From assembly GCF_001761365.1 (NCBI RefSeq), contig NZ_CP017477.1, positions 518,501 to 582,500 of the forward strand: a DNA stretch of 64,000 nucleotides. Reading direction: 5' to 3'. Made by a program: the position numbers and the translations under genes. This document shows, in pieces, positions 32,263 through 37,846 of the stretch (the stretch's first letter is position 1; every line of letters begins with the position of its first letter). Source of the stretch: Polaribacter vadi (GTDB lineage Bacteria; Bacteroidota; Bacteroidia; Flavobacteriales; Flavobacteriaceae). The notes below the pieces were generated by a model. That model searched no databases, was not told the DNA's origin, and saw nothing but the letters and a program-made list of their open reading frames with translations.

Positions 32263-34128
32263 ATGAGTGAAGAAACAAAATATACAGAAGATAATATTAG
32301 ATCATTAGACTGGAAAGAGCATATTAGAATGCGACCAGGAATGTATATTGGTAAATTGGGAGATGGCTCTTCTGCAGACGATGGAATTTACATTTTAGTA
32401 AAAGAAGTGTTGGATAATTCCATTGATGAATATGTAATGGGCGCAGGAAAAACCATCGAAATTTCCATTCACGGAAGTAAAGTTACAGTACGTGATTATG
32501 GACGTGGAATTCCTTTAGGGAAAGTAGTTGATGTGGTTTCCAAGATGAATACTGGTGGTAAATACGATTCTAAAGCCTTTAAAAAATCTGTGGGTTTAAA
32601 TGGAGTTGGTACAAAAGCAGTAAATGCACTTTCTTCTTATTTTAGAGTAGAATCTTCACGTGAAGGAAAATCTGCTTCTGCTGAATTTAGCCAAGGTAAT
32701 TTAGAAAATCAAGAATTTTTAGAAGAAACATCAAGAAGAAAAGGAACCAAAGTTTCTTTTATTCCTGATGAAGAAATTTTTAAAAAATACAAATACAGAA
32801 ACGAGTATGTAGCAAAAATGCTAAAATACTATGTGTATTTAAATCCAGGTTTAACCATTATTTTTAATGGAGAAAAGTTTTTTTCAGAAAATGGATTGAA
32901 AGATTTATTAGAAGATAATAACAACCAAGAAGATTTATTATACCCAATAATTCATTTAAAAGGCGATGATATTGAGGTTGCAATTACACACAGTAAAACG
33001 CAATATTCAGAGGAATATCACTCTTTTGTAAATGGACAATATACAACACAAGGAGGAACGCATCAAGCTGCTTTTAGAGAAGCTATTGTAAAAACGATTC
33101 GTGATTTTTACGGAAAAAATTTTGAAGCTTCAGATGTTCGTAAATCCATAATTTCTGCAATTGCTATTAAAGTGATGGAACCTGTTTTTGAAAGTCAGAC
33201 AAAAACTAAGTTGGGTTCTACAGAAATGGGTGATGATTTGCCAACAGTAAGAACATACATTAACGATTTTGTAAAAACAAAGCTGGATAATTTTCTGCAT
33301 AGAAATACTGAAATTGCAGATAAACTTCAAAAGAAAATTGTTCAAGCAGAAAAAGAGCGAAAAGAATTATCAGGAATCAGGAAATTAGCAAGAGATAGAG
33401 CAAAAAAAGCAAGTTTACACAACAAGAAATTACGTGATTGTAGAGTTCATTTAGGAGATATTAAAAAAGATAATTATTTAGAATCAACGTTATTTATAAC
33501 AGAGGGAGATTCTGCATCTGGTTCTATTACAAAATCACGAAACGTAAATACACAAGCCGTTTTTAGTTTAAAAGGAAAACCTTTAAATTCTTATGGCTTG
33601 AGTAAAAAGATTGTGTACGAAAATGAAGAATTCAATTTATTGCAAGCCGCTTTAAATATTGAAGATGGGTTAGAAGATTTACGTTATAATAATATTGTAA
33701 TTGCCACAGATGCCGATGTTGATGGAATGCACATTCGTTTGTTATTGATTACATTTTTCTTGCAATTTTTCCCAGAATTAATAAAAGAAGGACATTTATT
33801 TATTTTAGAAACACCTTTGTTTAGAGTAAGAAACAAAAAACAAACTTTTTATTGTTATTCTGATGAAGAAAAACGAGAAGCCATAGAGAAATTAAGAGGA
33901 AAACCAGAAATAACTCGATTTAAAGGTTTGGGTGAAATTTCGCCAAATGAATTTGTGCATTTTATAGGTGATGATATTCGTTTAGATCCTGTAATGCTTG
34001 ATAAAGAAATGTCGATTGAACAAATGTTGCAGTTTTATATGGGCAAAAATACACCTGATAGACAGAAGTTTATTATTGATAATTTAAAAGTTGAGTTGGA
34101 TACTATTGAGGAGGAAAGCCTATCCTAA
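32263..34128 (+). CDS. parE: DNA topoisomerase IV subunit B
   Basis: About 621 residues from the ATG at 32263, which starts [30 protein letters not shown]; an earlier in-frame ATG-free extension to 32224 adds non-family sequence. The GHKL ATPase has [13 protein letters not shown] and GRGIPLG, the transducer domain the Lys of [10 protein letters not shown], and the Toprim domain [10 protein letters not shown] and [11 protein letters not shown] with PLFRVR. With ParC it decatenates replicated chromosomes. ParC lies on the same strand, but about 970 bp of repeats and a broken gene separate them. Confidence 0.95.
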
Positions 34129-34167: not shown

Positions 34168-34404
34168 ATTGGAGGTGCCAAATTGACTCCTCCAAATCTC
34201 ATAAAGACCTCACAGGTTTTTAAAACCTGTGAGGTCTGAAATACGAAAATCTTGAGGTCGCAATTTGCGTCATCAAAATTCAAATTAAAGTTTAAGATGC
34301 CAAATTGGCTCCTTAAAATTAAAATGTAAAAATAAAATTGGAGGTCACAATTTGCGACCTCCAATTTAAAAAACAACTTGAGGTTACAAATTGTGACCTT
34401 TAAG
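34168..34404 (+). repeat. Array of imperfect palindromes related to the coding palindrome of the adjacent ORF6N gene
   Basis: Six hairpin-forming units start at about 34168, 34205, 34251, 34292, 34335 and 34377, i.e. every 37-46 bp. Five of them (all but the one at 34205) are variants of a GAGGTCnCAA..TTGnGACCTC core. When read in a suitable frame they encode short peptides of one type: LRSQFASSK (34251, +), WRSQIVTSN (34335, -), NLRLQIVTFK (34377, +), LRSQFGILN (34292, -), and WRSQFGTSN (34168, -). The intact gene downstream encodes NLRSQFATSSW in its own palindrome (34619-34649). The array is non-coding as it stands, because the frames are not continuous with the gene. Confidence 0.8.
34205..34237. 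repeat. 33-nt near-perfect palindrome
   Basis: Two 16-nt arms (AGACCTCACAGGTTTT and its complement) around a single T. It is unrelated in sequence to the five neighbouring ORF6N-like palindromes but sits in register with them. Palindromes of this type are, as I recall, dispersed in many flavobacterial genomes. It could form a very stable hairpin in RNA. Confidence 0.75.
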
Positions 34405-34414
34405 ATTACAAAAA

Positions 34415-34940
34415 ATGAAAGAAGAAGAAAAAAGTATAATTCCAGATGAAATAATATCTAATAAAATCTATTTGATTCGCAATCAAAAGGTAATGATAGA
34501 TAGAGATTTAGCGGATTTATATCAAGTAGAAACAAAAAGATTAAAAGAGTCTGTAAAAAGAAATTCAGAAAGATTCCCTGAAGATTTTATGTTTGAATTG
34601 ACAAAAGAAGAGTTTGAAAACTTGAGGTCGCAATTTGCGACCTCAAGTTGGGGAGGTACAAGATATTTACCTTCTGTATTTACAGAACAAGGAGTTGCAA
34701 TGTTATCGAGCGTTTTGAATAGCGATAGAGCTATTGCTGTAAATATTAAAAATTATTAGAATATTTACGAAAATGCGAGATTTATTAAGTGATAATTTAA
34801 GTTTACGATTAGAAATTTAAGACATTAAAAAGAAAGTAAACAATCATGATAAAAACATTGAATTGGTATTTTCTTACTTGGATGAATTAATTGAGAAAAA
34901 AGAGAGTGGAACAGAAAGAAATAAAATAGGTTATAAATAA
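34415..34940 (+). pseudogene. Broken ORF6N domain gene (one frameshift and one nonsense change)
   Basis: The first 114 codons read as an ORF6N protein: SNKIYLIRNQKVMIDRDLADLY, RFPEDFMFELTKEEFENLRSQ, RYLPSVFTEQGVAMLSSVLNSDRAIAVNI. At about 34750 an extra base shifts the frame. The other frame then continues the family (IRIFTKMRDLLSDNLSLRLEI), meets a TAA where Glu is expected, and goes on as DIKKKVNNHDKNIELVFSYLDELIEKK to a final TAA at 34938-34940. Two lesions in an otherwise full-length gene suggest recent decay. ORF6N proteins are phage-type DNA-binding or antirepressor-like proteins. Residues 69-76 are encoded inside a 14-bp-arm palindrome. Confidence 0.85.
34619..34649. repeat. Palindrome inside the ORF6N coding sequence
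   Basis: Perfect 14-nt arms (AACTTGAGGTCGCA and TGCGACCTCAAGTT) around ATT, encoding NLRSQFATSS. The 19-nt left part is identical to 34251-34269 in the upstream array. Confidence 0.9.
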
Positions 34941-34963: not shown

Positions 34964-35058
34964 AGCAAACAAGTTTGCGTTAGGGATTGAAGCGACATCC
35001 TTTTTGCTTTTCCGCAAAAAGATATAGCGTAAAGCCCGACCTTTTTAGGGAACGCCCA
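34964..35058 (+). ncRNA. Candidate structured RNA element A, in the leader of parC
   Basis: The segment begins CAAACAAGTTTG, then GCGTTAGGGATTGAAGCG, a hairpin (TTTTTGC / GCAAAAA), GATATAGCG, AAAGCCCGACC and AACGCCC. GCGTT (34977-34981) can pair with AACGC (35051-35055) and GGG with CCC (35035-35037), closing a structure around the internal hairpins. A diverged copy with compensating stems lies on the minus strand at 50829-50931. It ends 40 bp before the parC ATG. I recall similar sequence scattered in flavobacterial genomes; the Rfam flavo-1 family is a possible identity, not verified. Confidence 0.55.
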
Positions 35059-35098: not shown

Positions 35099-37846
35099 AT
35101 GAGTGAAGAAATAAACGAGAACGAACACGAAGAGGAATTAACGAATCAAGAAAATCAATCTGAAGATACTGATAACCAGACAGAATCTGTAGAAACCATT
35201 ACCAAAGTTACAGGAATGTACAAGGAGTGGTTTTTGGATTATGCTAGTTACGTAATTTTAGAAAGAGCAGTGCCTTCTTTAGAAGACGGATTGAAACCTG
35301 TGCAACGTAGAATTATGCATTCTATGAAAGATTTGGATGATGGACGTTACAACAAAGTAGCGAATATTGTTGGGCATACAATGCAGTATCATCCTCATGG
35401 AGATGCTTCTATTGCAGATGCTATGGTTCAAATTGGCCAGAAAGAATTGCTAATTGATATGCAAGGAAACTGGGGAAATATTTTGACTGGAGATAGAGCT
35501 GCAGCCTCAAGATATATTGAAGCACGTTTGTCTAAATTTGCCTTGGATGTTGTTTTTAATCCGAAAACTACGGATTGGAAAATGTCTTATGATGGTCGTA
35601 GAAAAGAGCCAATTGATTTACCTGTAAAATTCCCATTATTACTGGCACAAGGAGCAGAAGGAATTGCAGTAGGGTTATCAACCAAAATATTACCTCACAA
35701 TTTTATTGAATTAATTGATGCTTCCATAAAATATTTAAAAGGGAGAAGTTTTAAAATTGTTCCAGATTTTTTAACAGGAGGAATTGCAGATTTTACAGGA
35801 TATAAAGACGGAAAAAGAGGAGGAAGAGTTCGAGTTCGTGCAAAAATTTCGCAATTAGATAAAAAGACGTTGGTTATTAATGAAATTCCTTTTGGAACCA
35901 CCACAACTTCTTTAATTGACAGTATTATAAAAGCCAATGAAAAAGGGAAAATAAAAATTAAAAAAATTGAAGATAATACTGCTGCTGAAGTAGAAATAGT
36001 GGTGCATTTACCACCAAACGTTTCACCAGATAAAAGTATTGATGCTTTGTATGCGTTTACAAATTGCGAAAGCTCAATTTCGCCTTTAGCGTGTACAATT
36101 GAAAATAACAAACCTGTTTTTGTTGGCGTTTCAGAAATGTTGAAACACTCCACAGATTTAACTGTTAATTTACTGAAAAAGGAATTAGAAATTCAGTTAA
36201 ATGAATTAGAAGAACAATGGCATTTTTCATCTTTAGAAAGAATTTTTATAGAAAATAGAATTTATAGGGATATTGAAGAAGAAGAAACTTGGGAAGGTGT
36301 TATTAAAGCAATCGATTTAGGATTGCAACCTTATATTAAACATCTTAAAAGACCAGTTACAGAAGAAGATATTACACGTTTAACAGAAATTCGTATTAAG
36401 AAAATATCGAAATTTGATATTGACAAAGCCAAACAATTTTTAGAAAGTTTAGAAGATAAAATTGCAGTGGTTAAAAATCATTTAGCCAATTTAATTGAAT
36501 TCGCAATTGATTACTTTAAACGTTTAAAAGAAACCTATGGAGCAGGAAAAGAACGTAAAACAGAAATTAGAATTTTTGATGATATTGTAGCTAGTAAAGT
36601 TGCTATGAATAACGCAAAATTATATGTAAATAGGGCAGAAGGTTTTATTGGTACATCATTGAAAAGAGATGAATTTGTTACAGATTGTTCTGATATTGAT
36701 GACATTATTATCTTTAGAAAAGATGGTGGAATGATGGTTACTAAAGCGGATGCAAAAACTTTTGTTGGTAAAGATATTATTCACGTTGCTGTATTTAAAA
36801 AGAAAGATAAACGTACTGTTTACAACTATATTTATAGAGATGGAGCAAGAGGCGCAAGTTATATGAAACGTTTTAACGTAACATCTATGACTCGTGATAA
36901 AGAGTACGATTTAACCAATGGAAGTAAAAACTCTATTGTGCATTATTTTTCTGCAAATCCAAATGGAGAAGCAGAAGTAGTTACTATTAATTTAAGAGCA
37001 GTTGGTAGTGTTAAGAAATTGAAATGGGATATTGATTTTGCAGATTTGGCTGTAAAAGGTAGAGCTGTTAGAGGAAATAGAATCACAAAGTATAGTATTA
37101 AATCTGTCGATTTTAAAAGCGAAGGAGTTTCAACATTAAAACCACGTAAAATTTGGTTTGATGATGCTGTGCAACGTTTAAATGTTGATGAAAGAGGCGA
37201 ATTGTTAGGCGAATTTAGAGCAGAAGATAAATTATTAATTATTACTCAAAGTGGAAAAGCAAAAGCCGTAAAACCAAACTTGGCAATGCATTTTGAAGAT
37301 GATATGATTGTCTTAGAAAAATGGAAACCAAATAAACCTATTTCTGCCATTTATTTTGATGGAGAAAAAGAACGTTATTATGTAAAACGCTTTTTGATTG
37401 AAACCACAGAAAAGGAGGAAGAGTTTATATCTGATCACCCAAAAAGTCAATTAGAAATTGTAGCTACAGATTATAGACCTGTTGCAGAAGTTCAGTTTTC
37501 TAAAAGAAGTTTAGAAAATGAAGAAGTTAATTTTGAGGAATTTATAGCTGTAAAAGGAATAAAAGCTTTAGGAAATCAATTAACAACCGATAAAATTAAA
37601 CAAGTTAATTTGTTAGAATCTTTACCTTTTGAAGAACCTGAAGAAGAAACTCCAGAAGAAATTGAAGTTGTGGATGAAGAAGTGATTGAAGATAAATTAC
37701 CCATTGATGTTCCTGAATTTAAAAAACCTGTTTCAGAAGAATTATCTGCAGAAGAAAAAGCAAAAATTGCTTTGCAAAAATCGATAGCCAGAAAGAAAGC
37801 AGAACAAAAGAGAATTGATGATGAAAATCAGACGAAGTTGTTTTAA
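35099..37846 (+). CDS. parC: DNA topoisomerase IV subunit A
   Basis: 915 residues. After an acidic N-terminal tail (about 35 residues) the breakage-reunion domain begins (MYKEWFLDYASYVILERAVPSLEDGLKPVQRRIMHSM). The catalytic Tyr is in GDRAAASRYIEARLSKFA. The C-terminal beta-propeller has degenerate repeats (DIIIFRKDGGMMVTKADAKTFVGKDI), and the end is a low-complexity Glu/Lys tail, longer than in E. coli. It lacks the strict GyrA box, supporting topoisomerase IV. It partners ParE, encoded about 1 kb upstream. Confidence 0.94.
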   Translation: MSEEINENEHEEELTNQENQSEDTDNQTESVETITKVTGMYKEWFLDYASYVILERAVPSLEDGLKPVQRRIMHSMKDLDDGRYNKVANIVGHTMQYHPHGDASIADAMVQIGQKELLIDMQGNWGNILTGDRAAASRYIEARLSKFALDVVFNPKTTDWKMSYDGRRKEPIDLPVKFPLLLAQGAEGIAVGLSTKILPHNFIELIDASIKYLKGRSFKIVPDFLTGGIADFTGYKDGKRGGRVRVRAKISQLDKKTLVINEIPFGTTTTSLIDSIIKANEKGKIKIKKIEDNTAAEVEIVVHLPPNVSPDKSIDALYAFTNCESSISPLACTIENNKPVFVGVSEMLKHSTDLTVNLLKKELEIQLNELEEQWHFSSLERIFIENRIYRDIEEEETWEGVIKAIDLGLQPYIKHLKRPVTEEDITRLTEIRIKKISKFDIDKAKQFLESLEDKIAVVKNHLANLIEFAIDYFKRLKETYGAGKERKTEIRIFDDIVASKVAMNNAKLYVNRAEGFIGTSLKRDEFVTDCSDIDDIIIFRKDGGMMVTKADAKTFVGKDIIHVAVFKKKDKRTVYNYIYRDGARGASYMKRFNVTSMTRDKEYDLTNGSKNSIVHYFSANPNGEAEVVTINLRAVGSVKKLKWDIDFADLAVKGRAVRGNRITKYSIKSVDFKSEGVSTLKPRKIWFDDAVQRLNVDERGELLGEFRAEDKLLIITQSGKAKAVKPNLAMHFEDDMIVLEKWKPNKPISAIYFDGEKERYYVKRFLIETTEKEEEFISDHPKSQLEIVATDYRPVAEVQFSKRSLENEEVNFEEFIAVKGIKALGNQLTTDKIKQVNLLESLPFEEPEEETPEEIEVVDEEVIEDKLPIDVPEFKKPVSEELSAEEKAKIALQKSIARKKAEQKRIDDENQTKLF

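Follow-up and report, generated by a model that had tools for sequence, protein, structure and literature searches.

Palindromes inside ORF6N genes as probable DNA sites of the encoded proteins, with bases that follow the recognition helix

In a Polaribacter genome, the stretch between parE (end at 34128) and parC (start at 35099) contains an ORF6N gene, which has a perfect palindrome inside, and five quasi-palindromes in front of it. All positions refer to the window, i.e., the whole stretch of 64 kb that was analysed. The original prediction had described five imperfect palindromes upstream of the ORF6N gene, and these are indeed present at 34168–34404; translation of the units does give the peptides quoted for them (LRSQFASSK etc.), and the unit at 34250 shares 19 identical nt with the ORF6N gene, as had been stated. 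A spacing of 37–46 bp did not hold throughout, the centers lying 82, 40, 47, and 39 nt apart, and the gene was not found 200–450 bp downstream, as it starts 10 nt after the last unit.

Typed by the dinucleotide beside the CAA core of the half-sites, units 1 (34168–34196) and 3 (34290–34318) are of GC type, each having one arm in the coding form, reversed (AGTC and AGCC, respectively). Unit 2 (34250–34278) is CG/CG with an imperfect outer arm and is the only unit in the array that is fully of the gene's own type. Unit 4 (34337–34365) is of mixed CA/CG type, and unit 5 (34376–34404), of TA/CA type, has its center 25 nt upstream of the ATG. The 82-nt gap harbors another perfect palindrome at 34205–34237, AGACCTCACAGGTTTT-T-AAAACCTGTGAGGTCT, which is unrelated in sequence and stands in register with the array; no second copy of its 15-nt half was found anywhere in the window. 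Between the ORF6N gene and parC, a Flavo-1 RNA (RF01705) was detected at 34974–35045 with 57.1 bits, compared to a gathering score of 42.

The ORF6N gene itself (34415–34759, plus strand) encodes 114 aa with an N-terminal DNA-binding domain, matching the Pfam family ORF6N (PF10543) over residues 16–100 with 132 bits (cut-off 27.8). Codons for the predicted recognition helix (domain residues 25–34) occupy 34532–34561 on the plus strand, with R27 at 34538–34540 and E30 at 34547–34549. The putative self-site within the gene is the perfect palindrome ACTTGAGGTCGCAATTTGCGACCTCAAGT at 34620–34648, the arms of which reach 15 nt in the window sequence (34619–34649). It is centered at domain nt 174 and is CG in both arms, the type that would be expected for a helix with R27 and E30. 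Since most same-genus copies encode 155–191 aa, the window gene is probably a broken copy.

A search with the pattern GAGGTNNCAAWTTGNNACCTC, allowing up to three mismatches, resulted in five matches in the window compared to 0.04 expected from shuffles, namely the in-gene site and all array units except the one at 34290, which has four mismatches. In the window's own genome of 3.8 Mb, the same search revealed the five sites at this locus and two three-mismatch sites elsewhere, the control with the reversed pattern giving 13. A dispersed repeat or REP-like family of palindromes, which should have many copies throughout the genome, was rejected on the basis of these two sites off the locus.

Among 146 same-genus genomes, the pattern (at most one mismatch) was found in 34 and ORF6N in 36, these being nearly the same genomes; in G046, G076, and G104 the pattern was present without an ORF6N match, in G076 at the parE–parC locus. 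Sorting by hand assigned 47 of the 51 pattern sites in these genomes to ORF6N genes or their remnants and four to other places (reversed pattern: six sites). Twenty-six of the 39 same-genus ORF6N genes, including that of the window, adjoin parE, and for the other 13, parE was not within the stretch examined. An ORF6N gene is missing from 18 of 28 parE–parC intergenic stretches, and none of these 18 carries a unit. In several Polaribacter species (e.g., L042, L059, L035, L075, and L012) the ORF6N copy at this locus is truncated or fragmentary, which suggests repeated decay of the gene. With respect to type, the 26 genes adjoining parE comprise 12 of CA, eight of CG, and six of GC type, so that three types occur at one locus, and at least one arm of each fits the helix. 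Exact GC is restricted to the right arm in all but one of the six GC-type genes.

The palindrome within the gene turned out to be a property of the family. In 80 ORF6N loci from species of many phyla, the best palindrome in the scanned region had 10–14 of 14 pairs without exception, and 79 shared one center, the remaining one being 6 nt off. When 267 distinct ORF6N genes were taken together, 39 of them viral and the others from many phyla, the best odd center was located at domain nt 174 in 220 genes and at nt 172 in 18, leaving 29 with a center elsewhere. Of 168 genes compared with their own synonymous-codon shuffles, 149 had 11–13 of 13 pairs, a score of at least 11 being reached by 1.5% of the shuffles. 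The smallest P value possible with 200 shuffles was obtained for 106 of these 168 genes, and in 15 of the 168 the best palindrome did not exceed the shuffles at P 0.05. Genes centered at nt 172 carry similar DNA read in another frame, encoding VVANCDHL instead of LRSQFATS, and the palindrome still fits the helix. Among the 39 viral genes, both arms were of the expected type in 33, one arm in four, and neither in two.

Several genomes harbor ORF6N pairs with equal scores or, where compared, identical domains at a distance of 7–14 kb (L065 and L077, L070 and L071, and on contigs of G162 and G164). At locus L347, the ORF6N gene is located between genes for a type I restriction methyltransferase and specificity subunit, with a Fic gene near, and a Parabacteroides plasmid record (L346) displays three tandem ORF6N genes before leuS.

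Comparison of helix and palindrome in the 267-gene set, using palindromes with at least 10 pairs, revealed that the dinucleotide beside the CAA core tracks residue 30 of the domain. Glutamine goes with CA in 208 of 220 half-sites, glutamate with CG in 157 of 162, lysine with TC in all 28, and arginine with GC in 72 of 98, i.e., in 73% only. These pairings resemble the classical preferences of amino acids for bases in the major groove of DNA, namely of Gln for A, of Arg and Lys for G, and of Glu for C. Covariation with the right-arm dinucleotide, which itself holds 2.03 bits, was calculated for 235 of the 267 genes (best palindrome at one of the three usual centers, at least 10 pairs); kinship, which makes the sequences dependent on each other, was weighted by identity alone. 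Column 30 accounted for 1.47 bits and column 27 for 1.18, followed by columns 31 and 26 with 0.30 and 0.27; all others of the 50 columns were at or below 0.13, with a median of 0. Such a singling out of columns 30 and 27 would not be expected from plain linkage or shared ancestry. Further out, bases 7 and 8 from the center paired best with residue 26 (0.39 and 0.47 bits). A tree test on 240 tips and 80 columns placed 68 of 76 changes of residue 30 on a branch with a dinucleotide change, compared to 12 expected, and is given little weight because misplaced tips inflate both change counts together. In genomes with more than one ORF6N gene, 11 of 51 pairs shared the dinucleotide compared to an expected fraction of 0.29; based on a hand-made genome table from which genes with fewer than nine pairs were dropped, this is suggestive at most of mixed types within one genome.

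In an AlphaFold2 model of the protein from locus L041 (mean pLDDT 81.8), columns 27 and 30 are placed on a helix (41–50) that follows a short turn, and the stretch encoded by the palindrome takes up the end of another, later helix together with a loop of lower confidence. A fold search gave Ski/Dachshund domains as best hits (E 0.047) and MarR and MerR as weaker ones, with no hit below 0.001, and a sequence search of the Protein Data Bank recovered no relative of the ORF6N family. Based on the helices of the model and on general knowledge of such proteins, ORF6N may be read as a helix-turn-helix DNA-binding protein, which would dimerise probably via its long C-terminal helix. Residues 27 and 30 would then read the two bases beside the CAA core in each half-site and residue 26 would read further out.

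The code also indicates at which level the segment is constrained. Codon 57, in the left arm, specifies serine in nearly all genes with Gln30 and in most with Glu30, and its TCA:TCG ratio was 88:1 in the former and 1:60 in the latter (P 8e-40); nine further Glu30 genes have the threonine codon ACG at this place. Serine codons elsewhere in the same domains showed no such difference (58:20 and 59:25, P 0.60). In genes with Arg30, codon 57 encodes Ser, Cys, Tyr, Phe, His, or Arg, and its third base is C in 37 of 43. Because synonymous codons follow the helix and the palindrome is kept in another frame, the view that the in-gene segment is constrained as DNA and not as peptide is strongly supported. 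The variability of the LRSQ segment among ORF6N relatives, noted in the original prediction, is supported. LRSQ-x-TS is common among the aligned genes, as a conserved protein motif would be that is palindromic by chance, with residues 30 and 60 touching within the protein. We give this reading almost no credence, as it is contradicted by the covariation of synonymous codons with the helix, and an unrelated peptide, VVANCDHL, is encoded where the palindrome is read in the other frame and still fits the helix. That the palindrome might act as an RNA hairpin in the mRNA, since palindromes fold as RNA too, is very unlikely: broken pairs comprise 86 A.C and 45 G.U, which is evidence against a hairpin, and the bases track a predicted DNA-reading helix in the manner of the known major-groove preferences. 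Two Rfam matches overlapping the array scored far under the gathering scores.

Taking these results together, we consider it likely that the protein encoded by the gene recognizes the in-gene palindrome as its DNA site, with the recognition helix setting the code, and that this palindrome most likely serves as an autoregulatory operator, with the upstream units as further or former sites. Sequence statistics support a site at the level of DNA that fits the helix encoded by the same gene, keeps a fixed position, is spread throughout the family, and occurs in several types at one locus; from these we infer that the protein binds the site physically, forms dimers, and regulates its own gene, as well as how the array came about. 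As an operator, the in-gene site would act by occlusion or as a transcription roadblock and would travel with the gene. No regulon of ORF6N proteins beyond their own gene was visible.

Autoregulation is inferred because an upstream site replaces a lost in-gene site, as an operator would. Five genes (L069, L162, L169, L183, and L212) have either lost their in-gene site or carry one of a type that does not fit, and all five have an upstream palindrome with both arms of their own type, centered 79–113 nt before the domain. Where both in-gene arms are of the own type, 17 of 222 genes have such an upstream site, and where one arm is, one of 31. This comparison covered 264 of the 267 genes; six of the 11 genes scored as having no own-type in-gene arm had an upstream own-type site, and the group was narrowed by hand to the five named above. 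Among the 11, the usual place does hold an own-type arm in L126, L128, and L336, where another palindrome out-scored it, and one own arm in L293; L258 combines Arg with a perfect CC-type palindrome, and no clear site is seen in the viral locus L283. A wider automated test with a core filter gave an upstream own-type site in four of 13 genes compared to 18 of 251 (P 0.016). All nine negatives among the 13 were viral. Eight of them carry a palindrome in which at least one arm is of the own type and the core is a variant that the filter excludes, and the ninth is L283; since any center in the region was allowed, L212 was scored here as having an own in-gene arm.

A search for units similar to those of the window array upstream of 168 ORF6N genes gave 93 matches at 63 genes, with downstream matches at 17 and a count of 16 for shuffled regions, in which only base composition was preserved. 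About 19 of the 93 appeared by eye to be chance-like or a neighboring ORF6N gene's own site, leaving about 50 genes. One of five dinucleotides found in genes was carried by 151 of 192 upstream half-sites. Over all genes, the own type was neither avoided nor preferred among upstream half-sites (0.214 compared to 0.243 by chance, P 0.19), and in Polaribacter alone there was weak avoidance (0.129 and 0.230, P 0.02). The nearest unit at the Polaribacter locus has similar outer arms in several species and differs in its inner bases. As suspected, array and gene share one element. Read on the opposite strand, the 21-nt core of the window unit at 34172–34192 is identical to the core found inside the gene of L063, which is from another Polaribacter species. 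Of 15 GC-type units flanking genes, one of which (L148 at +782) is the in-gene site of a neighboring ORF6N gene, 11 display AG in an arm (10 in one arm, L184 in both). The AG form is the serine coding form, found within genes on 23 of 45 left arms and on no right arm. This coding-form asymmetry of many GC units suggests copying between gene and array. Array units would be accessory sites or relics of earlier ones, having been copied out of genes and then either abandoned or retuned when specificity switched. Many resemble in-gene copies, and they often mismatch the present protein, presumably because the locus has changed its specificity.

Such copying would also bear on the proposal in the original prediction that the array stores silent segments, which are recombined into the gene to diversify it. 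A unit core identical to the gene core of another species, and the AG coding form in 11 of 15 flanking GC units, are what a cassette system of this kind would be expected to show. However, the units are palindromes of about 30 nt and are too short to include the recognition helix, which is encoded about 80 nt upstream of the in-gene site and has to change together with it; furthermore, 105 of the 168 genes have no upstream unit with the filter used, and the constraint falls on DNA, not on peptide. A silent coding reservoir therefore appears quite improbable. The other explanation that had been offered, an element inserted in frame as in Rickettsia, would account for palindromic DNA in frame within a coding sequence, and yet we regard it as hardly tenable, given that the best palindrome lies at two fixed places (nt 174 or 172) in 238 of 267 genes, is not dispersed in its own genome, and tracks the helix of the gene that carries it.

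Among the readings that accept a self-site, one would have the protein bind its own gene in order to replicate or move the element that carries it, the in-gene site being a site of replication, recombination, or mobility. There are precedents, e.g., the lambda O protein, which binds an origin inside its own gene; moreover, some ORF6N genes are located on plasmids or beside integrases, and some genomes contain the equal-score copy pairs 7–14 kb apart. We regard this as unlikely. There is one palindrome and no iterons, 26 of 39 same-genus genes are found at one chromosomal locus, one gene lies inside a type I restriction operon, and genes that have lost their in-gene site carry one just upstream of the ATG. 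In addition, Pfam revealed ORF6N alone in the 114-aa protein of the window. An operator read by the gene's own product remains the explanation that we prefer.

RhuM, Bro-N, and KilA-N genes had been planned as negative controls and came out positive, after which TetR and HTH_3 were used. At least 11 of 13 pairs within the open frame were found in 22 of 29 RhuM, 21 of 29 Bro-N, and 19 of 24 KilA-N genes (62 of 82 together), compared to 9.6%, 4.8%, and 4.0% of their synonymous shuffles, respectively, and an ORF6N sample gave 52 of 60 compared to 5.6%. TetR genes reached this score in four of 29 cases (3.5% of shuffles), HTH_3 genes in none of 30 (1.4%), and ORFs of the window in seven of 42 (7.3%); as TetR and window ORFs are above their own shuffles, the synonymous-shuffle null is a little low. 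For these families and controls, the longest open frame covering the match stood for the gene; several loci (e.g., L354, L371, L391, L411, L413, L423, L429, L430, and L432) in which this frame, by eye, is not that of the family were kept in the counts. Among loci L351–L434, near-perfect in-gene palindromes of RhuM, Bro-N, and KilA-N genes were seen that encode motifs which recur, e.g., SVVRNFRTTA, DHFVDVNKMV, and FKPLEFEGFK. In RhuM, the inner bases could be compared with a variable place of the helix, resulting in E with CGG in nine of nine sites, Y with CGA in four of four, L or M with AAG in six of seven, and K with TTCC in two of three. With 24 of 30 loci passing the filters, a helix located via a typed motif, at least two Y sites nearly identical, and R encountered once without a usable site, this apparent match is only a lead.

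ORF6N is one of the Pfam domains in the list of the Bro-N network (PMC10111431). The passages of that paper bearing on the network list the domains and do not mention in-gene sites, and in-gene palindromes of Bro-N and KilA-N were found here. Among the matches listed in a literature search that covered subscription papers little, on palindromes of ORF6N, KilA-N, or RhuM, on KilA-N autoregulation, and on intragenic operators, nothing resembling such an in-gene self-site appeared, and an earlier report may exist. There is perhaps an even chance that a common rule applies to the network, by which ORF6N, RhuM, KilA-N, and Bro-N genes would each carry the site of their own product, the motifs LRSQ-x-TS, SVVRNFRTTA, and FKPLEFEGF would be operators, and the network would fall into specificity groups in which helix and in-gene site switch as a pair, comparable to the immunity groups of phages.

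The analysis yields a putative recognition code that can be read from sequence, for a family of DNA-binding proteins that is widespread and for which the Protein Data Bank gave no relative in a sequence search. If the proposed reading is true, a conserved protein motif would be explained as a DNA site, and regulator and operator would be combined within a few hundred bases, allowing a switch of specificity and movement of the gene without loss of control. Sequence alone would then suffice to predict where many uncharacterised regulators of phages and bacteria bind.

Sites inside a coding sequence are known from other systems. The recognition sites of the lambda O protein are located inside gene O, and its specificity covaries with them among lambdoid phages; ORF6N would share with it the sites in the protein's own coding sequence and differs in that O recognizes iterons at a replication origin, whereas ORF6N genes on chromosomes, in viruses, and on plasmids carry a single palindrome. 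Intragenic operators, e.g., lac O2 and the internal operator of gal, also place a regulator's site within a coding sequence. In these cases, however, the regulator of the gene is encoded elsewhere, while the putative ORF6N site is part of the gene for the regulator itself and fits that protein's helix throughout the family. In the immunity groups of lambdoid repressors, helix and operator change together to give separate specificities, as do helix and putative operator in ORF6N, but their operators are located outside the gene.
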